From positions 1-64,000 of the forward strand of contig NZ_FOXV01000012.1 in assembly GCF_900115815.1 (NCBI RefSeq): a stretch of DNA of 64,000 nucleotides, in the 5' to 3' direction. The notes beneath the pieces are model-generated. The model had not been told where the DNA came from, ran no database searches, and saw only the letters and a list, made by a program, of their open reading frames with translations. Every line of letters begins with the position of its first letter. Positions within the stretch are counted from its first letter, which is position 1. Shown here piece by piece: positions 32,669 through 49,568 of this stretch. The DNA comes from Roseivivax halotolerans. Its GTDB lineage: Bacteria > Pseudomonadota > Alphaproteobacteria > Rhodobacterales > Rhodobacteraceae. A program made the translations under genes and the position numbers.

Positions 32669-33508
32669 CTAGCCCCGCATCGTCATTGCGGAACCCTGCC
32701 CCATGATCCGTTCGAGCTCGCCCACCGCTTCGTTCAGCTTCGGGCCGACCTCTTGCCGCATCCGTTCGATACTGAGCGCCTCGGGCATCGCCCCGCAGGT
32801 GAAGACCACGGGCTCCGAGAGATCGCGGGAATGGAAGGGCCGCGCCACGGCGTGGATATTGGCGGCGTAATACTGGTCGGGATCGGTGATCGAGAAGCCC
32901 TGCGTGATGAGCTGGCCCCAGGCGTCGCGGCGGATCTCGAGCGCGCGCTCCGGCGTCAGCCCGCCCGCGCCGGCGACGTTCGCGACGGTCTTCTCAAAGA
33001 CGTCTTCGGGCATCGCCGCGAGCAGCGCGTGCCCCGAGGATGTGCCGTTGAATGGCAAGCGATGACCGATCTCGAGCCACAGCGAAGAGATGCCGCGTGG
33101 GCGCCAGGTCTTCAGGATGAGAAGCTTCTTGTCGTCGCGCACCAGCAGCAGCGACATGGTTCCCGTCTCGTCCGCGACCCGCTGCATGATCGGCCCCGCG
33201 AGTTCCACGAAGGAAATAGACGATGTCGCGACGTTGCCGAGTGCCAGGAGTGCAGGTCCGGGCCGATAGCGGTCATGCCGGCGGGCGTGGTTGAGATAGC
33301 CAAGCGATTGCAGCGTAAAGGTCAGCCGGGAGACCGTGGATTTCGGGATTCCGGTCCGTTCCGAAATCTCCGCATTGCCGAGCCCGTCATCGGAGGCGCG
33401 GAACGCGCGCAAGACCGCGAGTCCCCGCGCCAGCGTCGTCGCAAAGCGGCGGTCGGTCTCGTCCTGCGGCAGGATGCGGATATCTTCCTCGGGTCGCATG
33501 CCGGTCAT
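32669..33508 (-). CDS. IclR-family transcriptional regulator
   Basis: 279 residues. The N-terminal winged helix (LARGLAVLRAFRAS, EISERTGIPKSTVSRLTFTLQSLGYL) precedes the IclR effector-binding domain (~100-270; GTSSGHALLAAMPEDVF and GFSITDPDQYYAANIHAVARPF). The ATG shares a TGATG with the stop codon of the TRAP large subunit, so the regulator is translated with the transporter and lies inside the operon it probably controls. The effector is likely the imported acid or its CoA ester (inference). Confidence 0.9.
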   Translation of the reverse strand: MTGMRPEEDIRILPQDETDRRFATTLARGLAVLRAFRASDDGLGNAEISERTGIPKSTVSRLTFTLQSLGYLNHARRHDRYRPGPALLALGNVATSSISFVELAGPIMQRVADETGTMSLLLVRDDKKLLILKTWRPRGISSLWLEIGHRLPFNGTSSGHALLAAMPEDVFEKTVANVAGAGGLTPERALEIRRDAWGQLITQGFSITDPDQYYAANIHAVARPFHSRDLSEPVVFTCGAMPEALSIERMRQEVGPKLNEAVGELERIMGQGSAMTMRG

Positions 33509-34845
33509 CACATCGAACTCGGGATCAGGAGCGACAGGATCGGGAACGCCATGATGAGCGCAAGCACAAGCACGTCAATGCTGAGGAAACGCAGGATGCC
33601 CGAGAAGATCCGGTCGATGGGCACATCCTTACCGACAACACCCGAGATCACGAACACATTGAGCCCGACGGGCGGTGTGATGAGGCCGATCTCCAGGAGT
33701 TTGATGACCACGACGCCGAACCAGATGAGGTCCCAGCCATAGCTTTCGACGAGCGGCACCATCAGGGGCAGCGTCAGCACCATGATCCCGATCGGATCGA
33801 GGAACATGCCGAGCACCAGGTAGATGATCGCGATCGCGACAAGCAGAAGGACCACCGACAGGTTTGCGTCCGAAACGAAGGAGACGATGTCCGAGGCAAC
33901 GCCCGTCAAGGCGATGAAGGCCACGAAGATCTTCGCGCCAGCGGCGATGATGAAGATGGACGTGGTCTGGATCACGGTCTCGCGCAGGCTTTCCCAGAGA
34001 CCCGCGAAGGTCAGCTTGCGCTGCGCGAAGCCGATGAGGATCGCTGCGGAGACACAGACCGCCGCTGCTTCGGTCGCCGTGAAGATGCCGCCATAGATGC
34101 CGCCGACGATGATCACGAAGAGCGCAACTGCCGGCCAGGCTTCAATCGCCGCGTCGAAACGCTCTCGCGCGGTGATCTTGCCGGTGAAGGCCGGAGCCGC
34201 CTCGGGCTCGCGCCAGACCCAGAAGAAGATGACGATCAGGAAGCCTGCGAGCGACAGAAGGCCGGGGATGATGCCCGCGAGAAACAGCGCCGAGATCGAG
34301 GTTTCCGTGAAAATGCCGTAAATGATGAACAGCACCGATGGCGGGATGAGCGATCCGAGCGTGCCGCCCGCGGCAACCGAGGCTGTCGCGAGCCGCTTGT
34401 CGTAGCCCATCCTCAGCATCTCGGGCGAGCAGATCCGCCCCATCGTCGAGGCGCAGGCAATGGACGAGCCGGTGATCGCCGAGAAGCCGCCACAACCGAC
34501 GACCGAGGCCATCGCCACGCCGCCGGGCACCGAGGCCAGCCAGACACGCGCCGCGTGGTAAATCTTCGTCGTGATCTCCGCGCGATAGGCGATGTGGCCC
34601 AGCGCCACGAAGAGAGGGATCATCGAAAGATCGTAGGAATGAACGAGGTCGAACGAGTTCGAGAAGACGAGGCTCGACGTCGGCGTGAACGCTCGCTCGG
34701 GCATGAAGGTGCCGGTTCGGAAGGCGAAGATCGCGAAGGTGCCGAGGCTGGCGACGCCCGCGAGCGCGAAGGCAATGGGCACGCGCAGCGCAAGCAACAC
34801 GATGACGGCGGCGAAGGCGATGAGGCCAATCGTGGTCGGATCCAT
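33508..34845 (-). CDS. TRAP transporter large membrane subunit (DctM)
   Basis: 445 residues, about 12 helices, DctM family. Recognisable motifs are GCGGFSAITGSSIACASTMGRICSPEM, GGTLGSLIPPSVLFIIYGI and LDPIGIMVLTLPLMVPL with TPPVGLNVFVI near the end. It forms the Na+-driven transport channel with DctQ. One base separates it from the small subunit, and its stop overlaps the IclR start. Confidence 0.93.
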   Translation of the reverse strand: MDPTTIGLIAFAAVIVLLALRVPIAFALAGVASLGTFAIFAFRTGTFMPERAFTPTSSLVFSNSFDLVHSYDLSMIPLFVALGHIAYRAEITTKIYHAARVWLASVPGGVAMASVVGCGGFSAITGSSIACASTMGRICSPEMLRMGYDKRLATASVAAGGTLGSLIPPSVLFIIYGIFTETSISALFLAGIIPGLLSLAGFLIVIFFWVWREPEAAPAFTGKITARERFDAAIEAWPAVALFVIIVGGIYGGIFTATEAAAVCVSAAILIGFAQRKLTFAGLWESLRETVIQTTSIFIIAAGAKIFVAFIALTGVASDIVSFVSDANLSVVLLLVAIAIIYLVLGMFLDPIGIMVLTLPLMVPLVESYGWDLIWFGVVVIKLLEIGLITPPVGLNVFVISGVVGKDVPIDRIFSGILRFLSIDVLVLALIMAFPILSLLIPSSM

Positions 34846-34846
34846 C

Positions 34847-35368
34847 TCAGGCCTCCTCGGTCTGTTCGGGGCCGTAGCCCGTATCAGCCAGAGGCTCGCC
34901 CCGGCGCATCGCGCCGATGTCGCGCCAGACCATGATCGCCAGCCGCAGCCAGCAGAAGGAGATGCCGGCGAGGAAGATCACGCGGCCCGGCCATTTCGGC
35001 AGATTGAGATCGCCGAAGAAGTATCCCCCGGAGGCAATCGTATGCGTGACCTCGCGCCAGCCGGCCCAGATGAGCGGCGCCAGCGCCAGAAGTCCGAAGA
35101 TCGAGCCGAAGACAACCAGCCCGTCCCGCACGCGCGGCGGCATCCGGTTGGAGACGAATTCCACCACGATATGCGCGCGGTTCGCGGTCGTCGCGGCCAG
35201 GGGCAGGATCACGGCGGCGACCATCAGCTCGGCCACCATGACAATCGCGTCAGGCACACCCGAATTGAAGAAGGCGCGCAGAAGGACGGTCGCGGTGATC
35301 AGCACTCCAAGGCCGAGGACGGAAATGATCGCCAAATCCACGAGAAGGCGCTCGATACGGCGCAGCAT
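34847..35368 (-). CDS. TRAP transporter small membrane subunit (DctQ)
   Basis: 173 residues with four helices, DctQ family: LLVDLAIISVLGLGVLI, AELMVAAVILPLAATTANRAHIVVEFVSNRM (the conserved His segment) and later hydrophobic stretches. The C-terminal tail after the last helix is polar. It partners the adjacent DctM subunit. A strong hairpin lies between it and the upstream binding-protein gene. Confidence 0.9.
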   Translation of the reverse strand: MLRRIERLLVDLAIISVLGLGVLITATVLLRAFFNSGVPDAIVMVAELMVAAVILPLAATTANRAHIVVEFVSNRMPPRVRDGLVVFGSIFGLLALAPLIWAGWREVTHTIASGGYFFGDLNLPKWPGRVIFLAGISFCWLRLAIMVWRDIGAMRRGEPLADTGYGPEQTEEA

Positions 35369-35400
35369 CGCGAAACCTCATGAGGAAGGGGATTGGGGGG

Positions 35401-35430
35401 GCGGCGCGCTTGCTGGGCAAGGCGCGCCGC
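35401..35430 (-). promoter_or_regulatory. Intercistronic hairpin between binding-protein and membrane-subunit genes
   Basis: GCGGCGCGC and GCGCGCCGC form a perfect 9-bp stem that continues, past one bulged base, with TTG/CAA to a short loop. No T-run follows. Such structures after a binding-protein gene often stabilise the upstream mRNA or cause partial termination, so that DctP is made in excess over DctQM. This is an inference. Confidence 0.5.
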
Positions 35431-35452
35431 GTGTTCGTCGAAGATGCGGGCC

Positions 35453-36505
35453 TTAGCCCTGCTCACGCTCCCAGGGGTAGCCCTGGCTGTCGCGCTCTTC
35501 TTCGTATTTCTCGAGAAGGCCGCGATATTCCTCGAGCATCGCCGCACCGTCGAGACCCAGGCCGGAGACCTGCTCGACCCACTCGTCGATATACTTGGAG
35601 CCCTCTTCGACGAGCTTGCTCCGCTCTTCGGCAGGCAGTTCGATGATCTCGACGCCCGCCTCGCGCATCGTCTCGATGGCGGCTTCGTTGTCGGCGGTGA
35701 TGAGACGGCCCAGCTCGTCCGACATCATGCGGCCCGCTTCGAGAAGGACGTCCTGCTGTTCGGCCGGCAGCCCGTCGAAGGATTGCTTGTTCATGAAGAT
35801 GCCAAGCGCGCCGGTCTGACCCCAGTTGAGGAGCGTGTAGCTGTCGATGACTTCCTGCTGTTTCAGCGCGGCCGTCGCGTAGGAATATGTCTGCGAGCAG
35901 TCGATGAGCCCCGTGTCGAGCCCCTGATACGCGTCGTAGATCGACATCGGCACGAGGTTCGCGCCGAAATCGCCGAACGTATCGCCGTAAGCGCCGACGC
36001 CGCGGACCTTGAGCCCTTCGATATCCTCGACCGACCGGATCGCGGTGCCCTTGCAGCCGATATGGACCGCGGAGGTGGTGAATGTGCCAAGATAGACGAG
36101 GTTCTGCGCCGCGAGGTACTCGGTGATCTGCTCGTTCGAGCGCATGATCTCGTCGGTCGCCTTCATGCCGACCCAGGCGTCGGAATTCTCGAGCGGCATG
36201 TCCGCGATGCGGTAGGGGGCCATCTCTTGCGGGAAATAGACCGCGATGATCGTGCCGAGATCGGCCACGCCGTCAGCGATGCCGGACAGCGCCGCACCCG
36301 CCTTGAAGAGCGCACCGCCCCACTGGATGTTAAGCGAAAGATCGCCACCCGACATCTCCTCGACCTGTTCTGCAAAGAAGTTGAGCGACTCGCCACGCGC
36401 GCCGCGGTTCGGGCCCGCCTCACCGACGAACAGATCTTGTGCTGTGGCGGCTCCAGCCCCACAGATCATCACGCTTGCCAGCGCAGCTTTCATGAAACGC
36501 GTCAT
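35453..36505 (-). CDS. TRAP transporter solute-binding protein (DctP family)
   Basis: 350 residues with a signal peptide (MTRFMKAALASVM..., cleavage after ATAQ). The mature part is a DctP-fold periplasmic receptor: FFAEQVEEMSGGDLSLNIQWGGALF, ADLGTIIAVYFPQEM and the signature region EDIEGLKVRGVGAYGDTFGDFGANLVPM...GLIDCSQT. The conserved Arg in KVRG usually binds the substrate carboxylate, consistent with an organic-acid ligand. It is the first gene of the large catabolic cluster. A second ATG at codon 5 is possible. Confidence 0.92.
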   Translation of the reverse strand: MTRFMKAALASVMICGAGAATAQDLFVGEAGPNRGARGESLNFFAEQVEEMSGGDLSLNIQWGGALFKAGAALSGIADGVADLGTIIAVYFPQEMAPYRIADMPLENSDAWVGMKATDEIMRSNEQITEYLAAQNLVYLGTFTTSAVHIGCKGTAIRSVEDIEGLKVRGVGAYGDTFGDFGANLVPMSIYDAYQGLDTGLIDCSQTYSYATAALKQQEVIDSYTLLNWGQTGALGIFMNKQSFDGLPAEQQDVLLEAGRMMSDELGRLITADNEAAIETMREAGVEIIELPAEERSKLVEEGSKYIDEWVEQVSGLGLDGAAMLEEYRGLLEKYEEERDSQGYPWEREQG

Positions 36506-40038: not shown

Positions 40039-40239
40039 ATCAGCCTCCCAAACAAGCTCTCAGGTACTTTGGCGCAGCTTATCCGAGAGAGCAAACTGCC
40101 CTAGCGTTAAGCTCGCCCGCAAGCACGTGAATCCAAGCGTTAATAAATCGTGAATGCTGCGCCTGCATGCCGCGCCGCCATTGCGTCGTTGCCGCGTCAT
40201 GGCAGTGTTTGCTCCGGGTGACGCAGAGAAGGGCACGAA

Positions 40240-42306
40240 ATGAGCATTCCAACGCATGAGGGAATTGTCTGGAGCGACGCCCAGCCCCTGCCCGAACCCG
40301 GCGACGGCTATTCCCATTGGGAAGCCGCAACCAAGACAGAGCAACTTCGCGCTGTCATGGTCTTTGCCGAACTCCGCGAAAGCGCATCCGTGACCTCCCT
40401 CAGGGATGCGATCCTCGCGCTGCAGGCCGAACCCATGGCCCGCATGCAGGCATCCGAGCTCGATGCGCTCGATGCCGAGATTGCCGCGCTCGACGAGATG
40501 GCGCGCGGCAAGGGCAGCAGTGAGGCCGGCGACCTCTCCCCGCCGCCTCCTGCTTTTCCCTGGCCGGTCCGTGTCGCTGTCTTCTGGCTCGGAGCGCTCG
40601 ACGAGCTGCCGGACTATTGCCGGCTCATCCATGTCGGCCCGCGCGTGGCACGGCTCAACGAAGCCGACCCCCGCGACCGCGATCCGATCGCACGCCATGC
40701 CGCGACGGGGCGCGGCACGACACCGATCATCGCCGCCATCGATGACGGGATCGGTTATCTCAATGCCCGCTTCCGCCGCAGCCTGAGCGAAACCCGGATC
40801 GAGAAGATCTGGCTTCAGTCCGAGCCGCGCGGCGATACTCACGGTGTCGTGGAGCCGCTGCCGGACGTTCGGATCGGCCAAGTGCTCACCCGTCGTGACA
40901 TCGACCGGGAGCTGGCAACGGGCCTTGACGAGGATCACCTCTACCGGATGCGGAACGCCGGGCTTCTGCCGCGGGATGTGCGGCACTCGACCGATCACCG
41001 CGCGGCGCATGGAACGCATGTTCTCGACCTCGCCGCGGGCGCAGAGTGCACGGGAGACGACCCATTGCGCGATCTGCCGATCCTCGCCGTGCAATTGCCG
41101 CCCGCCGCGATCGCCGAGACCTCGGGGCGCAAGACGGAAGGTTATGTGGCCATCGGCCTGCGCTGGATCGTGACCGAAGCCATGCGCGCTTCGACGTGCG
41201 ACGGACGCCCTGTCGTCGTCAACCTGAGCCTAGGTGCGCTGGGAGGACCGGGCGACGAGACCGCTTTTCTTGCCGAGTGGTGCAGCTCTGAAATCGCGCG
41301 CTATGAACGCCTGACCGGCGGGCGGCTCCAGATCGTCGCCGCTTACGGCAATGCGCGGCTCGACCAGCTTGTCGCCCGCAAGGAGGTCTGCGCCGACGCG
41401 CCGCTCGCACTCGACTGGCGCATTCAGCCCGATGACCGCACAGCGAGCTTTCTCGAACTGCGCGCACCAGGAGGCGGTGCCGGAAAGCGCGTGTCGGTGA
41501 CCGTGCCCGACCCGCGCATCGCGCCGCTGGTGCTCGACTGGCCGGATGCGGGACAGGTGCGTCTTCTGCAGCGCGGACGGCATGTGATCGCGGCGCTCTA
41601 TTCCGTGTCCGCACCCGCGGGTGGGGCGTGCCTGGTTCTCGCCGTCGCGCCGACAGCGCGCTGGGATGACGGTGCGCTTGCCCCGGCAGGCGCCTGGAAG
41701 CTCTCGGTCGAGAGCGCGGCTTCGGCCCTCGTCACCGCCGAGGTGCTGCGAGACGACACGCCCTACGGCTTCCGCCCGCGCGGGCGGCAATCCTATCTCG
41801 ATGCGCCGGGCTGGGATTGGGATGCCGAGCTTGGAGGCAACGCCGCGCCGGCCTTCGGGAATCCGATCTCACGGCAGGGAACGGCCGTCGCCTATGCCGG
41901 CGCCACGAGCGCGATGCTGTGGTTCGTCAGCGCCGCAGGGCCGGCAACCGGTCAGCCGGGCGCCCACATCGCGTCGCGCTATTCGGCCGAAGGCATCTCA
42001 TCTCTCGGGCGTCCCGGGCAATCCGTGGGCCCGACCCTGTCCGCACGCGGCGATGACGGCGTCTTCCTGACAGGCCAGCGGGCATCGGGCGTTCTGACCG
42101 GCAGCGTCGCGCGGTTCTCGGGAACCAGCGTCGCGGCACCTCGGGTCAGCCGCGCGCTTGCCAGCCTCTGGGCGCGCCAAGGCGGCTCGGGCGATCCCGA
42201 AGCCGACCTCATGGCGATCCTCGGCGATACGCCGCCTCTGCCCCGCCCGGACCCAAGGCTGGGCCGCGGCACGCTACACGATCATCCCCATTCGCGCAGC
42301 GCCTGA
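40240..42306 (+). CDS. S8-family serine protease (subtilase), no signal peptide
   Basis: 688 residues. The catalytic triad is readable: Asp168 in AAIDDGIGY, His257 in AHGTHVLDLAAG and Ser630 in FSGTSVAAPR. An N-terminal ~150-residue region (starting MSIPTHEGIVWSDAQPLPEP) has no subtilase similarity, and about 200 residues without a recognised domain lie between the oxyanion region (IVAAYGNARLD) and the Ser. No signal peptide or membrane segment is present, unusual for a subtilase, so it is either cytoplasmic or exported by another route. Its 3' end overlaps the convergent PAP2-type gene by 25 bases. Link to its neighbours is by position only. Confidence 0.85.
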   Translation: MSIPTHEGIVWSDAQPLPEPGDGYSHWEAATKTEQLRAVMVFAELRESASVTSLRDAILALQAEPMARMQASELDALDAEIAALDEMARGKGSSEAGDLSPPPPAFPWPVRVAVFWLGALDELPDYCRLIHVGPRVARLNEADPRDRDPIARHAATGRGTTPIIAAIDDGIGYLNARFRRSLSETRIEKIWLQSEPRGDTHGVVEPLPDVRIGQVLTRRDIDRELATGLDEDHLYRMRNAGLLPRDVRHSTDHRAAHGTHVLDLAAGAECTGDDPLRDLPILAVQLPPAAIAETSGRKTEGYVAIGLRWIVTEAMRASTCDGRPVVVNLSLGALGGPGDETAFLAEWCSSEIARYERLTGGRLQIVAAYGNARLDQLVARKEVCADAPLALDWRIQPDDRTASFLELRAPGGGAGKRVSVTVPDPRIAPLVLDWPDAGQVRLLQRGRHVIAALYSVSAPAGGACLVLAVAPTARWDDGALAPAGAWKLSVESAASALVTAEVLRDDTPYGFRPRGRQSYLDAPGWDWDAELGGNAAPAFGNPISRQGTAVAYAGATSAMLWFVSAAGPATGQPGAHIASRYSAEGISSLGRPGQSVGPTLSARGDDGVFLTGQRASGVLTGSVARFSGTSVAAPRVSRALASLWARQGGSGDPEADLMAILGDTPPLPRPDPRLGRGTLHDHPHSRSA

Positions 42307-43427
42307 GCACCGATCGCACCGAGAAGCCGCGAGCGGCGTCCTTCGCTTACGGCGTTCGAGATGCTGCCCGGCACAAGCGCGCGCACCCATTCACGCCAGG
42401 CATCCAGCGTGAACCCGCCATTCCAGGAGGCGGCGTCGGGCGCGAAAGGCGCGCTCGGCGCGAAGTCATGGGTCAGGGACTCGCCGAGGATCGGACGCGC
42501 GAGCGCAAGACCGAGCATGAAGCCAAGAAGCCCGCCATAGGCGCTGTCGATGGGAAAATGCACGCCTGCCACTGTGCGATTGTCGGCGATACGCGCCGCC
42601 AGCGCGAAGGGCATTAGCGTCCATTCATCGGCCGGGGCCGGCTGACCGACCGCGGTCAGCGTCTCGATCACGCCGACAATGGCGCTCTCGTGCGGGCGGC
42701 GCCCCTTTTGCGACATGAGCGCGAGGATCGTGGCGAACGCGAAAGCCTCTGTCGCGTGGCCGCTCGGGCAGGAGCCGTGACCGGGCGTCTGGATGATCGG
42801 TTGCACTTTCGGGGAATATGCAATGGGGCGCGGCACGTCCGCGGCGAGTTTCACTGCCTGCTCGGGCTGGATCACGACGTCGTAGACACGGCCCAAAAGC
42901 TCCATCGTCCAGCGCCGCCGGGTCGCGTCGAGCTGCACTTGCGTGCCGAAGAAGGAGAGCATGTCGCCCTGTTGTAGCAGGATCTCCGGCAGCCGGTCGG
43001 ATCGCAGATCCATCGCGGTACGCAGATACGGCAATTGATGCACTCCGAGATCCTCGGCGCTCGGCGTCGGCAATGTCAGAGAGATGCCTCGCGCGGACAC
43101 GCGCGGCGCTTCGGGCGGGCCGGCGACGGAGAAAAAGCCGCTCATTTCTTGCGCGACCACCGCAGCCCGCGAGCCGGGTTGCAGGGCGCGCAGACGATCG
43201 ATCATCGTCGCGCTCGGCGCAGGCGGCACCTCGCCCTGCCCGTCCCAATATCCCATCAGGCCCTCGGCCGAGACGCCAAGCGCGCTCGAAAGAAGTGGCG
43301 AGCCGCCGCCACCGGCATGTGTGCCATGCGTGCCGTGCGTGCCGTGCGTCCCATGGGTACCGTGCGTGCCGTGGGTGCCGTGCGTCCCATGGGTTCCGTG
43401 CGTGCCATGGGTTCCTAAAATCGCCAT
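42282..43427 (-). CDS. PAP2 / vanadium-haloperoxidase-fold protein with GTH repeats
   Basis: 381 residues. Residues 5-37 are eleven consecutive Gly-Thr-His triplets, followed by AGGGGSP and a helical region. The C-terminal part holds the complete PAP2-superfamily active site: K-x6-RP (VKLAADVPRP), PSGH (221-224, in CPSGHATEAFAF) and R-x5-H-x3-D (NRTVAGVHFPID). The size and motif spacing suit vanadium-dependent haloperoxidase relatives as well as acid phosphatases; the substrate cannot be read from sequence. No signal peptide is evident. The start MAILG is chosen because upstream in-frame residues run into the shared promoter region. It is divergent from a SARP-like regulator. Confidence 0.78.
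   Translation of the reverse strand: MAILGTHGTHGTHGTHGTHGTHGTHGTHGTHGTHGTHAGGGGSPLLSSALGVSAEGLMGYWDGQGEVPPAPSATMIDRLRALQPGSRAAVVAQEMSGFFSVAGPPEAPRVSARGISLTLPTPSAEDLGVHQLPYLRTAMDLRSDRLPEILLQQGDMLSFFGTQVQLDATRRRWTMELLGRVYDVVIQPEQAVKLAADVPRPIAYSPKVQPIIQTPGHGSCPSGHATEAFAFATILALMSQKGRRPHESAIVGVIETLTAVGQPAPADEWTLMPFALAARIADNRTVAGVHFPIDSAYGGLLGFMLGLALARPILGESLTHDFAPSAPFAPDAASWNGGFTLDAWREWVRALVPGSISNAVSEGRRSRLLGAIGAQALREWG
43317..43415 (-). repeat. Eleven 9-base units encoding Gly-Thr-His
   Basis: Tandem 9-base repeats within the 5' end of the PAP2-type gene. Synonymous codons vary between units (ACC/ACG/ACA, CAT/CAC, GGA/GGC/GGG/GGT), while the protein triplet is unchanged, so the peptide rather than the DNA appears to be kept. 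Confidence 0.9.
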
Positions 43428-43493
43428 ACCGAAAAACTCCTCGCCTGAAATATGCTGGCGGAGTTTGATACCGGTTCGGCCCGGCGCGAAGAA

Positions 43494-43531
43494 AATTCGC
43501 AAAACGGGCACGAAATTCGCGAAGAATTCAC
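43494..43531 (+). promoter_or_regulatory. Direct heptamer repeats, candidate SARP operator
   Basis: AATTCGC (43494-43500), AATTCGC (43514-43520) and AATTCAC (43525-43531) are direct repeats with start-to-start spacing of 20 and 11 bases, in an AT-richer patch between the PAP2-type gene and the SARP-like gene. SARP-family activators bind direct heptamers about 11 bases (one helical turn) apart. Binding is inferred. Confidence 0.5.
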
Positions 43532-43604
43532 GCAAGCTCTCGGTGGCGCTTCCCGGAAGGCCCCGGATTTGCTAGCTTTCGTCGGGCACGGGAAGGGGAA
43601 CAGG

Positions 43605-45233
43605 GTGACCGTGAAGATCCGTTTGATCGGAGATTTCCGCGTCCTCGATGACGCGGGATCGGACGTGACGCCGAATGCGGCGCGCGCACGCGCGCTTCTG
43701 GCGATCCTGGCCCGGTCTCCCGACTGCACCCGTTCGCGTCGCTGGATCGAGCAGACGCTTTGGCCGGACCGCAGCCCGGAGCAGGCCTCGGGATCGCTCC
43801 GGCAGGTGGTCAGCCAGATCCGAAAGGCGTTCGGTCCCCTGGCGGAGGACCACCTCGTCTCGACACGCGCGGCAATCTCGCTCGTGGATTGCACGACCGA
43901 TATCGAGGTCGATCCGCGCTCCTGCCTCGATCGGCTCCGCAGCGGCGGTGATCTCCTGGAGGATGTCCGCCTCAAGGTTCCAGCCTATAAAAGCTGGCAC
44001 CGCGAGGAGAAGAGCCGCATTCTGCAGACGCTCGAACGCACGGCCGGCGCGCTGACCCTCGGCGCGGGCGCCCCGCCACTCATGGGCCGACCATTATCCA
44101 TCGAGGTCAAAGGCTTCGGCGAAAGCGCCCGCGAGACCGGTCAGTTCATCGGCGACATGCTTAGTCAGCAGATGGCGGGGCTGATCTCGGATTTCGGAAC
44201 GTTCGACACATTGGTGGATCGGAGCGCGGAGGCCAAGGCAGGCGGCCTGACCCTGGCGATCCGTGCACTGACCGTCGGTGAGGAGGTTCAGATCCTCGCC
44301 GGGCTGACCGCGCAGGATTCCGGCAAGATGGTCTGGTCCGAGACCGCGCGGCTCGATGCACGCGCAGGCGATCTTCTGGGCCAGGGCGATGTGCCGAGCC
44401 TTGTCTATCACTCCGCCGAACGGGTTCTGACGCAGATGCTCGACGCGCGGGAGGATGCCGGGCTCAGCCTCAGGATCGACGCGCTCGTCAACGCGGCGAT
44501 CGCCGCGATGTTCACCTACATGCCCGGAGAATTGCGCCGCGCCGAAGCGCTTCTTGCCGAAGCATACGCCTTGCGCCCATTGTCGCGCATCGCTGCATGG
44601 CGGAGCCTTTTGCGTCAGATCATGCTGGTGGAACGGACCGAGCAGAACCTCGAGGAGTTGCACGAGGAAGCGCGCGCCTTCGCCCACGCGGCGCTCGAGG
44701 GCAATGACGGCAACACGCTGGTGATGTCGCTCGTCGCGCAGCTGTTGGCGATCCTCGAGAACGACACGGTGGTGAGCGCGGTGCTGGCTCGCGACGCTGT
44801 GGAGGCGAGCCGGTTCAACGCCTTTGCCCATTCCGCCGCGGCGACGGTGGCCTTGCGCGCGGGCGATACGGCGGCGGCGCTCGCCGCCTCAGAACACGCC
44901 GCCCGGCTCGCGGGCCGGGCCGCCTCGGCGCATTGGTTCGACACCATCGCGGGGCTCTCGGCGATCTCGGCGGGGGATCTCGACCAGGCGGTGCGCCATT
45001 ATGAGCGCGCCCATGCCCGCGCGCCGCATTTCCGCGCCCCCATGCGGCACTTGCTGTGCCTCTACGCCGCGCAAGGCGAGGCGCAGAAATCGGCGCAGAT
45101 GGCCCGCGCCCTCAAGCGTATCGAGCCCGATTTCGACGTGCTCCGCATCCGTGAAGACGAAACCTATCCCGTCTTCACGCTGCGCCAGTCGAACCTTCTG
45201 CCGTCGCACGAGATGGCGCTCGACCTGCTGTGA
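43605..45233 (+). CDS. SARP-like winged-helix regulator with TPR domain
   Basis: 542 residues. The N-terminal ~90 residues are an OmpR/SARP-type winged helix (VKIRLIGDFRVLDDAGSDV, ARARALLAILARSPDCTRSRRWIEQTLWPDRSPEQASGSLRQVVSQIRKAF as separate helices). A middle TolB-like segment (FGTFDTLVDRSAEA, VGEEVQILAGLTAQDSGKMVWSETARLD) and a long helical TPR region (~270-520) follow, as in CadC/SARP-like integrators without a membrane anchor. I prefer the GTG preceded by GGAAGGGGAA; the frame is open further upstream but over the divergent promoter. It probably controls the PAP2-type gene and perhaps the protease beyond it. Confidence 0.75.
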   Translation: MTVKIRLIGDFRVLDDAGSDVTPNAARARALLAILARSPDCTRSRRWIEQTLWPDRSPEQASGSLRQVVSQIRKAFGPLAEDHLVSTRAAISLVDCTTDIEVDPRSCLDRLRSGGDLLEDVRLKVPAYKSWHREEKSRILQTLERTAGALTLGAGAPPLMGRPLSIEVKGFGESARETGQFIGDMLSQQMAGLISDFGTFDTLVDRSAEAKAGGLTLAIRALTVGEEVQILAGLTAQDSGKMVWSETARLDARAGDLLGQGDVPSLVYHSAERVLTQMLDAREDAGLSLRIDALVNAAIAAMFTYMPGELRRAEALLAEAYALRPLSRIAAWRSLLRQIMLVERTEQNLEELHEEARAFAHAALEGNDGNTLVMSLVAQLLAILENDTVVSAVLARDAVEASRFNAFAHSAAATVALRAGDTAAALAASEHAARLAGRAASAHWFDTIAGLSAISAGDLDQAVRHYERAHARAPHFRAPMRHLLCLYAAQGEAQKSAQMARALKRIEPDFDVLRIREDETYPVFTLRQSNLLPSHEMALDLL

Positions 45234-45236
45234 CCC

Positions 45237-46286
45237 TCAGGCGTCGACTTCAACCTTGCCGATCGGGTGCGAGCAACAGGCGAGGATATATCCCTCTTCG
45301 ATATCCTCCTCCGAGATCCCGCCGTTATGGACCATGTGGACCTCGCCCGCGGTCTTCCTGATCTTGCACGTGCCGCAGATCCCGAAGGTGCAGCCCGAGG
45401 GGATTCGCAGACCGTTCGCCCGAGAGAGCGACAGGACGGTATCGGTCTCGTGGCAAGAAACGTGCAGCCCGCTCTTCGAGAAGACCACCTCGGCCTCGGT
45501 GGCGTCCTGAGGCACGGTGTCGTCGAACTCGGGCACGTCCTCGGCCTTGGCCACGGGTGCCTCGAAGCTCTCCTGGTGGTAGTGATCCATGTCGAAGCCG
45601 AGCCCCGCAAGGCCCTCGCGCACCATCGTCATGAAGTCCTCGGGCCCGCAGCAATAGACCTCGCGTTCGAGGTAATCAGGCGCCATCAAGCCCAGCATCA
45701 GCTGGTTGAAGCGGCCGAGATACCCGGTCCAGACCTCGTAGGGCTCCTCCTCGGTGACGGCGAAGCTGAGATGCAGGCCGGGCACCCGGCTTGCCATATG
45801 AATGAGCCGCTGCCGGAAAATCAGCTCGGAGGGCCGCCGCGCGCAGGCCACGAGCCGCGCATCGGGCATGTCGCCCTTGTCGTAGAGGTAAGAGGCCATC
45901 GACATCATCGGCGTGATGCCGGAGCCCGCCGCGATGAAGAGAAACTTCTTCTCGGGGTCGTCGAGGGTGAAATGCCCTGCCGGTCCGAAGGCGCGCATCT
46001 TCATGCCCGGCCCCAGGTTGTCGAACATCCAGCGCGTGCCGATGCTGTCCGGCTGGCACTTGATCGTGACCGAGATCGTCAGCGGCCGCGAGGGCGTCGA
46101 AGACAGCGTGTAGGTGCGGTGGATCGGCCCGCCCTTCACCGGCACTTCGAGCGTGATGAACTGCCCCGGCTTGTAGCGGAACGGTTTGCCCGAGGCGGCG
46201 CGGAACGCGAATGTCTTCACGTTCGGTGCCTCGGGCACGACCATCGTGCAGATAAGCTCTTCGGTGTCGGTCCAGTATTCGGACAT
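45237..46286 (-). CDS. gbcB: Glycine betaine demethylase reductase component
   Basis: 349 residues: an FAD-binding ferredoxin-reductase domain (HRTYTLSSTPSRP for FAD, LFIAAGSGITPMMSM for NAD) followed by a C-terminal plant-type 2Fe-2S ferredoxin domain (CTFGICGTCKIRK and a later Cys in LACCSHP). It passes electrons from NAD(P)H to the Rieske oxygenase encoded 8 bases upstream. The pair matches GbcB/GbcA, which removes one methyl group from glycine betaine as formaldehyde. The start MSEYWT is chosen over a longer upstream frame that overlaps gbcA. Confidence 0.86.
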   Translation of the reverse strand: MSEYWTDTEELICTMVVPEAPNVKTFAFRAASGKPFRYKPGQFITLEVPVKGGPIHRTYTLSSTPSRPLTISVTIKCQPDSIGTRWMFDNLGPGMKMRAFGPAGHFTLDDPEKKFLFIAAGSGITPMMSMASYLYDKGDMPDARLVACARRPSELIFRQRLIHMASRVPGLHLSFAVTEEEPYEVWTGYLGRFNQLMLGLMAPDYLEREVYCCGPEDFMTMVREGLAGLGFDMDHYHQESFEAPVAKAEDVPEFDDTVPQDATEAEVVFSKSGLHVSCHETDTVLSLSRANGLRIPSGCTFGICGTCKIRKTAGEVHMVHNGGISEEDIEEGYILACCSHPIGKVEVDA

Positions 46287-46294
46287 GCCCTGCC

Positions 46295-47530
46295 TCACTC
46301 GGCCGCGTAGAGGGCGCGGCCCGTGAGCCGCGACGTCATCGTTTCGCAATACCAGTCGACGAATTGCGCGACGCCGGATTCCTGCGCTGCGCTGTAGGGG
46401 CCGGGCTCGTAGGCCGGCGAGTTGATGCCGCGCTGGTTCTCCTCGATGATCTCGCGATCCTCGTCGTTGGTGTGAATCCAGACGGTCGTCAGGCGCTCGA
46501 GGTCATAATCTTGCCCCTCGACGGCGTCCTTGTGGACGAACCACTTGGTCGTGACCTGGGTCTCCTGCGGGCCGACGGGCTTCACGGAGAACAGGATCAC
46601 CATGTCCGACAGAAAGTGGTTCCAGGTGTTGGGATAGTGGAAGAAGAGCAGCGTGCCCGCATCGCGGATCGTCACATCGCCCACCAGCTTCTCGCAGGCC
46701 TGCTTGCCGTCGAGCGTGTAGCTGACCGACGATCCCACGAGCGGCACACGGACAAAGCGCCACTGCTCGTTGGGCGCGATCGTGAATTCGGAGGGAAGGC
46801 CCGCCTTTTCGCATTTCTGCAGATGCGCCGCGATCACCGGATCGTCCTTGCCCGACCCGTCGCCCGCGATGTTGGGGTTGTCATCGAAGGTCACGCACAG
46901 CGAGGGATGGCTGCCCGAACAATGGTAGCATTCGCGGTTGTTCTCGATCACGAGCTTCCAGTTCGCCTTCTCGACGATGGTGGTCTCGTGGGCCAGCTTG
47001 CACTCGGAGAGCTTGTGCGGCCCGGCATATTTTTGCGCCATCTCAGCCATCGCGTCGAATGCGGGAGCCTCCGCGCCGAGGCAGATGAAGAGGATGCCGG
47101 CGGCCTCACGGCAATGCACGGTCTTGAGCCCGTGCTGCGAGGGGTCGAATTCCGGCCCCATGTCGCGCGCCCAGAGCAGCTTGCCGTCTAGATCGTAGGT
47201 CCATTGGTGATAGGGACAGACGAGTTTCGGCGCGGAGCCCTTGTGTGTCTTGCAGATCCGGGAGCCACGATGGCGGCAGGAATTGTGGAAGGCGCGCGCC
47301 ACGCCGTCCGCGCCACGCACGACGATGACCGAATAGGCGCCGATCTCGACCGTCATGTGGTTGCCGGTCTTGGGGATCTCGGAGCCCGCGCCGACGAGCA
47401 GCCAGTCGCGGTACCAGATCCGCTCCATGTCGACGTCGAACATCTCGGGATCGGTATAAAGCGCGCGCGGCAGCGTGTAGCCCGGCCGGCGGCTCATCAG
47501 GTGGGAGAGCATATCCGATTGTGCACTCAT
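46295..47530 (-). CDS. gbcA: Glycine betaine demethylase oxygenase (Rieske)
   Basis: 411 residues, aromatic-ring-hydroxylating-type oxygenase alpha subunit. The Rieske 2Fe-2S site is CRHRGS...CPYHQW (~residues 85-110); the mononuclear iron site includes NNRECYHCSGSHPSL (~residues 200-215). The sequence pattern (RALYTDPEMFDVDMERIWYRDWLLVG) is typical of GbcA-type betaine demethylases and not of benzoate-type enzymes. Stachydrine demethylase is the closest alternative. It sits 1 base after dgcA and 8 before gbcB. Confidence 0.86.
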   Translation of the reverse strand: MSAQSDMLSHLMSRRPGYTLPRALYTDPEMFDVDMERIWYRDWLLVGAGSEIPKTGNHMTVEIGAYSVIVVRGADGVARAFHNSCRHRGSRICKTHKGSAPKLVCPYHQWTYDLDGKLLWARDMGPEFDPSQHGLKTVHCREAAGILFICLGAEAPAFDAMAEMAQKYAGPHKLSECKLAHETTIVEKANWKLVIENNRECYHCSGSHPSLCVTFDDNPNIAGDGSGKDDPVIAAHLQKCEKAGLPSEFTIAPNEQWRFVRVPLVGSSVSYTLDGKQACEKLVGDVTIRDAGTLLFFHYPNTWNHFLSDMVILFSVKPVGPQETQVTTKWFVHKDAVEGQDYDLERLTTVWIHTNDEDREIIEENQRGINSPAYEPGPYSAAQESGVAQFVDWYCETMTSRLTGRALYAAE

Positions 47531-47531
47531 G

Positions 47532-49568
47532 TCAGATGTCCTTCACAAGACGCAGCGCGTCATAGATTGCAGCATGGGTATTGCGGGCCGAGACGGCATC
47601 GCCGATCCGGTAGAGCGTGAATGCGCCGTCCGGGTTGCGGCCCTCGGGCTGGGGACGGCCCTCGATCAGTGCGTCCTGGTCCACCGCGCCGAGATTGCGC
47701 GAGCGCGGTTTGAGGTCGAAATACAGCTCGTCCATCGGCAGCGTTCCGTGATTGACCACGACCTGATCGAAGTCGCGCGTCTCGCGGTGGGCCGAGTAAT
47801 CCGTGCCGATATGCGCGGTGAGCATGTTGCCGGTCCGGGTCACGTCCTTCAGCCGATAGGTGACGGTGAACCGCACGTCCTTGTCCTGGAGCGCGCGCAT
47901 GTATGGCACAAGGTTCATCGCCATCACGTCGGGCGCGAAGCTGCGGTCGGGCGTCATGATCTCCACATGCGCGCCAGTCTTGGCGATGACTTCCGCAGCC
48001 TGAAGGCCGGTGTGATCGCCCGCGTCATCGTAGACGAGAACGCGGGTGCCGGGCTTCACATCGCCCGCGATGATGTCCCAGGCGGAGACGACGAGATCGT
48101 TGCCGGTCTCACAGACCTCTGTATGCGGCAGGCCCCCCGTGGCGACGATCACCACGTCGGGCGACAACTCGGCCACGTCCTCGGCCTCGGCATAGGTGTT
48201 GAAACGGAAGTCCACGTCGCGCGCGGCGCATTGCGCCATGCGCCAGTCGATGATCGAGATCATCTCACGGCGACGTTCGGATTGCGCGGTTAGCCGCACC
48301 TGCCCGCCCGGATCGGGCTGGACCTCGAAGACGGTCACGGCATGGCCGCGCTCGGCGGCGACGCGCGCCGCTTCGAGCCCGGCGGGCCCCGCCCCGACGA
48401 CGGCGACCTTCTTCTTCACTTCTGCGGGCGCGATTATGTGCGGCATCGACAGCTCGCGGCCCGTGGCGGCGTTGTGAATGCAGAGCGCCTCTCCGGCGGC
48501 ATAGATCCGGTCGAGGCAGTAGGTCGCGCCGACACAGGGACGGATGTCGTCCTCGCGGTTTTCCATGATCTTGCGGACGATGAACGGGTCGGCCATGTGC
48601 GCCCGCGTCATCCCCACCATGTCGAGAAGCCCCGAGGAGACCGCATGCCGCGCGGTCGCGACGTCCGGGATCTTTGCGGCGTGGAAGGTCGGCATCCCGG
48701 TTTCCTTCCGGATCGTGCCCGCGAAGTCGATGAAGGGCGCGTTCTTCATGCCCTGAACGGGAATCACGTCGGTCAGGCCCGGGTCGGTGTCGATATGACC
48801 CTTGATGACGTTCAGAAAGTCGACCTTGCCGCTGTCTGCAAGTCGGCGAGAGATCTCGAGACCTTCCTCGACCGAGATCCCGCCCTCGAGCCGCTCATCG
48901 GCGGTATAGCGGATGCCCACGATGAAGTCCTCGCCGACACGGGCGCGGATCGCGTCGAGCACATCCCAGGTAAAGCGCAGGCGGTTGTCGAGCGAGCCGC
49001 CATAGGGACTGTCGAGCGCGTTGGTGAGCGGCGACCAGAACTGGTCCATCAGGTGCCCGTAGGCCTGAAGCTCGATCCCGTCCATGCCGCCGGCCTTCAT
49101 GCGCTCCGCCGCGTCGGCATAGTCCTCGATGATGCGCTCGATCTCCCAATCCTCGACCATCTTCGGGAAGGCGCGATGCGCCGGCTCCCGCTCGTGGCCA
49201 GGAGAGACCGCCGGCAACCAATCGCCCTTGTTCCAATGCGTGCGGCGACCGAGATGGGTGAGCTGGATCATCACCGCGCAGCCATGCTCGTGGCAGGCAT
49301 CGGTGAGATCCCGGATCCACGGCACCACCTCGTCTTTGTAGGCGAGGATATTGTTGAAGACCGGCGGGGAGTTGCGCGACACCGCCGCGGAGCCCGCGGT
49401 CATGGCAAGCGCGACGCCCGCTTTCGCGCGCACCTCGTGATAGGCGCGATAGCGTGCCTTCGGCATTCCGTCCTCGGGATAGGCCGGTTCGTGCGCGGTG
49501 GTCATGATGCGGTTCTTCAGCGTCAGGTGCTTGAGCTGATAGGGCTGCAAAAGGGGATCGTTACGCAT
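47532..49568 (-). CDS. dgcA: Dimethylglycine demethylase-type flavoprotein
   Basis: 678 residues. The N-terminal ~370 residues are an Old-Yellow-Enzyme-like FMN barrel (LKNRIMTTAHEP, MIQLTHLGRRTHW), a cysteine cluster region follows (RPCVGATYCLDRIYAAG, ALCIHN), then a C-terminal FAD/NAD dehydrogenase half (VAVVGAGPAGLEAARVAAERG). This architecture is that of 2,4-dienoyl-CoA reductase relatives, including DgcA. Its place at the head of gbcA-gbcB supports conversion of dimethylglycine to sarcosine, so the operon removes two methyl groups in sequence from betaine. DgcB is not present here. Substrate is inferred from context. Confidence 0.8.
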   Translation of the reverse strand: MRNDPLLQPYQLKHLTLKNRIMTTAHEPAYPEDGMPKARYRAYHEVRAKAGVALAMTAGSAAVSRNSPPVFNNILAYKDEVVPWIRDLTDACHEHGCAVMIQLTHLGRRTHWNKGDWLPAVSPGHEREPAHRAFPKMVEDWEIERIIEDYADAAERMKAGGMDGIELQAYGHLMDQFWSPLTNALDSPYGGSLDNRLRFTWDVLDAIRARVGEDFIVGIRYTADERLEGGISVEEGLEISRRLADSGKVDFLNVIKGHIDTDPGLTDVIPVQGMKNAPFIDFAGTIRKETGMPTFHAAKIPDVATARHAVSSGLLDMVGMTRAHMADPFIVRKIMENREDDIRPCVGATYCLDRIYAAGEALCIHNAATGRELSMPHIIAPAEVKKKVAVVGAGPAGLEAARVAAERGHAVTVFEVQPDPGGQVRLTAQSERRREMISIIDWRMAQCAARDVDFRFNTYAEAEDVAELSPDVVIVATGGLPHTEVCETGNDLVVSAWDIIAGDVKPGTRVLVYDDAGDHTGLQAAEVIAKTGAHVEIMTPDRSFAPDVMAMNLVPYMRALQDKDVRFTVTYRLKDVTRTGNMLTAHIGTDYSAHRETRDFDQVVVNHGTLPMDELYFDLKPRSRNLGAVDQDALIEGRPQPEGRNPDGAFTLYRIGDAVSARNTHAAIYDALRLVKDI

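Follow-up and report, generated by a model that had tools for sequence, protein, structure and literature searches.

A mobile three-gene module joins a regulator with a TPR half, a protease and a PAP2 enzyme that carries a near-perfect N-terminal peptide array

What holds together three neighbouring genes that encode a subtilisin-like protease, an enzyme of the PAP2/haloperoxidase superfamily and a regulator with a TPR half, and why should the enzyme begin with eleven copies of the same tripeptide? The genes lie in a 64,000-nucleotide stretch of Roseivivax halotolerans DNA (contig NZ_FOXV01000012.1, positions 1 to 64,000, referred to as the window), where an initial annotation had grouped them as a protease, PAP2 and regulator module. 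All three are present, the first two overlapping at their 3' ends as it had described and the third diverging from the second, and we find that they form a mobile module consisting of a one-component regulator with a TPR half (REG), an array-bearing PAP2 enzyme (PAP) and a protease (SUB). The features are as follows:

40240..42306, + strand: SUB, S8 protease, Csp-like, 688 aa (Pfam Peptidase_S8, E=4.2e-12)
42282..42306: 3' overlap of the convergent genes SUB and PAP, 25 bp
42282..43427, - strand: PAP, PAP2/haloperoxidase-superfamily enzyme, 381 aa (Pfam PAP2, E=9.9e-12; stop codon 42282-42284)
43317..43415, - strand: N-terminal array of PAP, (Gly-Thr-His)x11, with codons that differ from unit to unit
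43428..43604: divergent intergenic region between PAP and REG, 177 bp
43605..45233, + strand: REG, with an OmpR-type winged helix-turn-helix (wHTH), a beta-alpha domain and a TPR superhelix (weak Pfam match and secondary structure of the model)

The PAP protein begins MAIL-(GTH)11-AGGGG..., its start being likely the ATG at 43427 because GAGGAG precedes it, and REG likely starts at the GTG at 43605, giving 542 aa. A family search of this genome returned a single PAP2 match, and outside the PAP array the genome contains no further copy of the (GTH)3 coding pattern.

Within the family Rhodobacteraceae we searched 120 genomes with PAP and, independently, with SUB, and the genes proved to travel together. 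PAP matched at 41 places in 36 of the 120 genomes and SUB in 32 genomes, 31 of which also had PAP (hypergeometric P=2.3e-22). Neighbourhoods were taken for 39 of the 40 PAP places outside the R. halotolerans genome, the omitted one being fragmentary, where its contig stops; with the window proteins as queries, SUB was found in 33 and REG in 32 of these 39 neighbourhoods, and with more queries in 34 and 38, respectively. A contig scan gave at least 583 PAP relatives confirmed by tblastn, the best 80 of which are mostly from Rhodobacterales and some from Rhizobiales, and a phylum sample gave 30/398, including distant PAP2 proteins without an array. Both partners were found for 114 of the 131 distinct array-bearing PAPs, and in 113 of these 114 complete loci both lie within 3 kb, so that the trio of the initial annotation does recur as one module. 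The window's arrangement is seen in 52 complete loci, PAP and SUB sharing a strand, with REG divergent, in 36, REG-PAP-SUB all on one strand in 19 and other layouts in seven. The module is also plasmid-borne, in Phaeobacter, Paracoccus, Microvirga and Paraburkholderia. Where these plasmid records are annotated, PAP appears as 'phosphatase PAP2 family protein' or, once, as a hypothetical protein, and we recognised no description of the module or of the array in the PMC literature (subscription papers and preprints lie outside this scope).

Two occurrences look damaged. One (L091 6780-7130) sits in a metagenome-assembled genome labelled Exiguobacterium profundum; its module is closest to Rhodobacterales sequences, and its GVH array lies in a different frame from the PAP domain, indicating a pseudogene or a sequence error. 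On the plasmid of Phaeobacter inhibens M647 (L262), the annotation gives shorter regulator pieces and a short hypothetical protein instead of the S8 protease, while neither PAP nor its NSF array looks damaged, which suggests decay of the module in one strain.

A shared promoter element provides the second line of evidence. The SUB and PAP promoters have in common a direct repeat with the consensus CGTNAA-N5-CGTNAA:

40138..40154, + strand: direct-repeat element upstream of SUB, CGTTAATAAATCGTGAA, with an 11-bp pitch, ending 85 bp before the ATG
43516..43532, - strand: element upstream of PAP, CGTGAATTCTTCGCGAA, with a degenerate second half-site, ending 88 bp before the ATG

Across 97 divergent PAP/REG regions, CGT[GCT]AA sites were enriched (188 vs 43), and same-strand pairs at exactly 11 bp numbered 45 vs 0.05 expected, with no other spacing seen twice. 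Counted by locus (17-bp pattern, at most one mismatch), the element precedes PAP in 75 of the 114 complete loci (0.65 in shuffled sequence), namely in 75 of the 92 loci with a divergent REG and in none of the 22 where REG and PAP share a strand. It precedes SUB in 31 of the 53 loci with SUB on the strand opposite PAP (shuffled 0.25) and in 2 of the 61 with SUB on the PAP strand (shuffled 0.4), and it precedes REG in four of 114. Chance neighbourhood can be rejected because the trio recurs and the element is common to SUB and PAP, and the trio looks like one co-regulated unit. The initial annotation had made its proposal depend on recurrence in other genomes and on a regulon link; the genes recur, and the SUB and PAP promoters carry one element, in line with the regulated unit it had suggested. 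We infer that REG is the protein that binds the element.

The arrays are nearly confined to this enzyme. A script placed a tandem array near the N-terminus in 142 of 154 PAP loci (some genes among these having been fetched twice), and only one of the 1570 other open reading frames of at least 150 aa in the window and the fetched neighbourhoods contained a perfect array of at least 15 aa. Two of the 12 script misses do carry an array (L082, NVH, and L091, the out-of-frame GVH), L120 is masked at the array position, L095 ends at a contig end, and the remaining eight (L180, L182-L188), which lack both SUB and REG, are distantly related PAP2 proteins, seven of them with starts that by eye resemble secretion signals. 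After duplicate removal, the 131 distinct arrays use 76 different units, most of them of three residues (94 arrays; 22 have four, eight have two, six have five and one has six), repeated in a median of nine copies and composed of 40% Gly followed by A, Q, H, S and N, with 0.2% Pro and no Cys. With starts as chosen by the script, the gap from Met to array is exactly three residues in 65 of 131 and at most 10 in 122, and in the structure model of PAP residues 1-39 have a predicted local distance difference test score (pLDDT) below 50. The initial annotation, which had noted the GTH repeat, had not seen that the unit varies among genomes yet is near-perfect inside each.

REG-type regulators do not generally come with arrays: of 40 REG-like neighbourhoods, 36 had neither PAP nor an array, and the four with PAP all had one. 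Short variants stand at the starts of PAP2 proteins adjoining REG-like genes, (GGGE)3-like in L287 and (GGNWF)4-like in L291. The single array found in another reading frame is (DPV)x17.7 in an 885-aa frame near a module (L050 12951-15605, + strand).

Short tandem repeats can be a functionless by-product of slippage, and slippage does occur here: in 11 Phaeobacter plasmid loci (taken from 21 Phaeobacter records), spanning strains and species, the NSF array has five (one locus), six (eight) or seven (two) copies, and within P. inhibens six (seven loci) or seven (one). Against slippage as the whole explanation, the repeat is kept in the protein and broken up in the DNA. When arrays were extended from their perfect cores up to units matching less than 60%, which leaves strongly degenerate units uncounted, 14 of 1287 internal units were imperfect (98.9% perfect), and 120 of 131 arrays had no imperfect internal unit. 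This is despite the fact that 1786 of the 3909 codons in perfect cores (46%) differ, synonymously, from the modal codon of their own column. Codon identity among units is 0.393 vs the 0.461 that the codon usage of the gene itself would predict, and equal codons in neighbouring units are avoided, with an adjacent-unit identity of 0.290 vs 0.385 after permutation (sd 0.0067; none of 2000 permutations as low); of the 129 arrays in this test, 106 fell below and 20 above their own permuted mean. Because of these codon statistics we disfavour slippage noise, which, considering also the concentration of arrays in PAP loci (142/154 vs 1/1570), is very improbable. In our reading, selection at the protein level favours repetition, and slippage of the DNA is opposed by selection or by survival bias; the array behaves as a selected tag in which regularity counts more than sequence.

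How the unit changes can be followed through pairs of PAPs. Pairs above 85% PAP identity share an identical unit in 9 of 9 cases, those at 75-85% in 13 of 14 and those at 65-75% in 21 of 36; at lower identity the counts are 12 of 171 (55-65%), 25 of 338 (45-55%), 21 of 3114 (35-45%) and 7 of 4171 (25-35%). A single-residue change is frequent among the near relatives listed (GVH/GTH, NSQ/NHQ), the window's GTH stands against GIH in Roseivivax lentus at 74% PAP identity, and mixed arrays exist (GNH/GNQ in L096, one GTQ in L087). In genomes with two module PAPs the units differed in all seven examined, including GGF/NAE in G217 and GNQ/TAM in G454; G075, whose second and weaker match has a (GL)5.5-like stretch and doubtful membership, was excluded from this count.

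Regularity combined with free choice of the unit is what would be expected of a homotypic assembly tag, in which identical repeats pair (as cross-beta, condensate or bundle), like co-assembles with like, and the protease has its target elsewhere. The different units of paralogs agree with this, as do the G/A/Q/H/S/N-rich composition almost without Pro and Cys, the low pLDDT, and the co-variation of array composition with PAP itself, the sole partner to co-vary under all three metrics used (p 0.027, 0.0025 and 0.0025, with the other partners controlled). At the same time, charged or bulky units (DAR, LDA, GWE, VEA) and lengths of two to six residues offer no obvious common assembly chemistry, and assembly alone leaves the constant protease unexplained; we consider this explanation rather unlikely. 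A collagen triple helix is rejected, since NSQ, VEA, ENW, ATM, QTQ, DAR and the units of two, four and five residues lack Gly at every third place; the Pfam Collagen score is 16.3 bits vs a cut-off of 27.2, although the GTH unit itself fits the pattern.

In SUB the triad and oxyanion Asn (D168, H257, N371, S630) are invariant in 34 of 34 sequences and the Pfam match exceeds its cut-off, placing it in S8; no signal peptide was seen by eye, as the initial annotation had it. In a side branch of five genomes (L221, L222, L224, L285, L288) the array-bearing PAP is followed by a Peptidase_A4 protein, over the Pfam cut-off, and no S8 gene was found in these five loci; in all five the TPR protein carries a class III cyclase domain where the wHTH would be. 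A link between protease and PAP is likely because the A4 peptidase replaces the subtilase in five genomes, and the swap suggests that array-bearing PAPs need a protease, not this subtilase in particular.

The units in the A4 loci are TSN, TGN, TGN, NTG (= TGN) and AGN, so that all five A4-linked arrays are [TA][GS]N repeats, with L285 read as NTG. Three loci with related PAPs have S8 genes nearby and the units DGM (L286), LDA (L070) and DAR (L069). That protease class and unit go together may be due to common descent.

Exchange of non-homologous parts, plasmid carriage and a patchy distribution (36 of 120 genomes) are also features of conflict or defence modules, in which PAP would be a harmful phosphohydrolase or haloperoxidase, the protease would release or destroy it, and REG would be the sensor. 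PADLOC gave no convincing match for the three window proteins (one weak match, IetS to SUB, E=0.022), and transcriptional control would be slow for abortive infection. A defence role thus appears improbable. In a viral structure library the matches were weak and mostly PAP2-type or unnamed, with one at E<=0.001.

The module, the promoter element and the array are well supported. As to what they do, we tentatively favour a co-regulated module in which the array is a multivalent handle edited by the module's own protease. A signal would cause REG to bind the 11-bp-pitch direct repeats and switch on PAP and protease together; the disordered array would be a multivalent handle on PAP; the protease would trim or remove that handle; and protease and handle together would set where and how long PAP acts, or its assembly state. 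A handle used in any register would require regularity, and the exact tripeptide would be free to drift, provided that all units drift together. As to the tag, we prefer, again tentatively, that the protease acts on it.

A number of observations weigh against it. With the other partners controlled, the co-variation of array composition is weak and unstable, and it is not robust for SUB (p 0.027, 1.0 and 0.015 under the three metrics), the REG mid-domain (p 0.15, 0.43, 0.86) or the REG TPR part (p 0.067, 0.080, 0.13). Unit lengths of two to six residues rule out one fixed structural period, and L287 has just its short (GGGE)3-like stretch and does not fit. The element, at up to one mismatch, is absent before PAP in 39 of 114 loci (17 of 92 divergent, 22 of 22 same-strand), and a scan of seven plasmid loci turned up no exact copy; modules at such element-less loci must therefore be controlled otherwise. 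Finally, the exact pattern shows no genome-wide excess, occurring 134 times vs 132 for the control in 24 genomes. In the R. halotolerans genome it occurs four times vs two for the control, one copy lying before SUB and one inside a transporter gene.

Given the lack of excess over control in the 24 genomes we reject a wide regulon; a regulon with just one or two promoters would give such counts, which do not prove it. That the array is read by the REG mid-domain was also dropped, as an early p=0.007 was lost with other domain borders and two more metrics.

The weak co-variation with REG bears equally on a peptide signal, by which the protease would cut the array into copies of one short peptide sensed by the TPR half of REG, creating a private channel. 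RRNPP systems are TPR regulators that sense peptides, and the logic would be analogous. A TPR-type protein lies nearby in most loci (both partners for 114 of 131), the copies are perfect, the units are specific to lineage and paralog, and the N-terminal half of the TPR protein can be a wHTH or a class III cyclase. The array, however, lacks robust co-variation with parts of REG, and (QG)n, (GGA)n and the like would be poor specific signals, which makes this explanation improbable as well. A private-tag system is a possibility we take more seriously, albeit hesitantly: a perfectly periodic peptide with an arbitrary, lineage- and paralog-specific monomer would serve self-recognition or act as a register-free handle, edited by a co-regulated, exchangeable protease. 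Under such a system, and with the same hesitation, selection would keep the protein repeat perfect and the DNA repeat scrambled. The array could be a molecular tag of a new kind.

Protein conservation usually concerns sequence or bulk composition; here the conserved trait seems to be the perfect repetition of an arbitrary short word. Repetition held at the protein level, with the DNA repeat scrambled and the unit drifting in concert, would be an unusual selective regime, one that is directly testable in culturable Rhodobacterales and that could reveal a new principle of assembly or recognition, or a new means by which an enzyme is labelled for its partner protease. Our analysis further leads us to propose, for an uncharacterised type of regulator, a promoter element and a small regulon.

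Around the module, window positions 32669-36505 (- strand) hold by eye genes for a TRAP-type transporter, namely for a periplasmic binding protein and two membrane proteins, with an adjoining IclR-like regulator, and an exact match to the direct repeat at 34306, inside one of these genes, is probably chance. Positions 45237-49568 (- strand) hold Rieske-type oxygenase, ferredoxin-reductase-like and FMN/FAD dehydrogenase-like genes, all in one direction, a set that by eye resembles a quaternary-amine degradation operon.

Among known systems, PAP can be compared with two kinds of enzyme. It belongs to the PAP2 superfamily by its K-x6-RP, PSGH and R-x5-H-x3-D motifs and a Pfam match over the cut-off, and the full PAP2/haloperoxidase active site described in the initial annotation is there: the K, R, S, H, R and H of the PAP2/vanadate site, together with D257, do not vary in any of the 40 aligned homologues (K156, R163, S185, H187, R247, H253 and D257, with numbering that begins after the array); a few have Ala in place of the Gly of PSGH. 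An extra His seven residues upstream of the PSGH His (H180 in the same numbering) is likewise invariant in 40 of 40. With small bacterial acid phosphatases (7f17; class A PhoN/PhoC) PAP shares the PAP2 fold and the K-RP-PSGH-R-H signature, and they give its best profile match (5.8e-22); acid phosphatases also rank first in a Foldseek search with the PAP model (mean pLDDT 86.4), 7f17 being best at E=3.7e-5. It differs from them in its extra His, N-terminal array, about 170 more residues and gene module, and no signal peptide was seen. Vanadium bromoperoxidases (1qi9) have the vanadate-site residues in common with PAP, and the invariant His 217 of PAP aligns with the His (H411) of their PtHpsyPSGH stretch. 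They are a weaker overall fold match, PAP is much shorter, and the first haloperoxidase in the fold search stands at rank 33 (4cit, E=0.14; 1qi9, E=0.93). PAP thus has the vanadate-site residues and extra His of a haloperoxidase and a closest overall fold that is not one. The initial suggestion of a halogenation or phosphatase system stands in this form, as the fold is nearest to acid phosphatases, the catalytic-loop His is common to bromoperoxidases, and the two are not told apart.

For SUB the nearest solved S8 proteins by profile are the Csp germination proteases (9sj6, 1.7e-23; CspB 4i0w, 3.7e-17), which are intracellular processing proteases; SUB differs in that no spore context was seen for it and in an N-terminal stretch of about 150 aa without assignment. 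Like the His-Xaa-Ser repeat protein HxsA4, the array is a tripeptide repeat that includes His (sub-threshold NCBIfam match, E=6.4e-8), but other PAP members have other units and the PAP array is fused to an enzyme. Membership of the HxsA family of ribosomally synthesised and post-translationally modified peptides was rejected at 33.4 bits vs a cut-off of 55, and by eye no maturase was recognised among the window's open reading frames, no dedicated search having been made. With RRNPP systems the module has in common a TPR protein, a protease and a candidate peptide source; the Pfam matches of the window REG include no RRNPP-type family, and no specific search was made.

Finally, REG has in common with CadC and with SARP/OmpR-type one-component regulators a wHTH-like N-terminus, and differs from them in its long TPR part. 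Its Pfam matches to Trans_reg_C (E=4.7e-4) and TPR_19 (E=3.7e-4) are below the Pfam cut-offs, a weak Trans_reg_C match recurs in 14 of 30 REG members, and the model (mean pLDDT 93.5) consists of wHTH, beta-alpha domain and TPR. The Foldseek matches, with TM-scores of about 0.2-0.35, are to TPR proteins and to the periplasmic domain of CadC; the CadC match (3ly8) has E=5.4e-6 but a TM-score of 0.25 and a root-mean-square deviation of 17, and ranks amid TPR proteins. The secondary structure of the REG model would fit a CadC-like arrangement. No membrane segment was seen by eye in the sequence or the model elements, no membrane predictor having been run. REG is not a typical SARP, which would have a wHTH followed by BTAD, as no BTAD is among the Pfam matches listed for REG members (25 of 29 families). 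Of the SARP-like regulator in the initial annotation, the sensor half resembles TPR proteins and, weakly, the CadC periplasmic domain, though the presumed operator has an 11-bp pitch, as described for SARP target promoters, whose direct repeats are spaced at 11 or 22 bp (PMC10936776).

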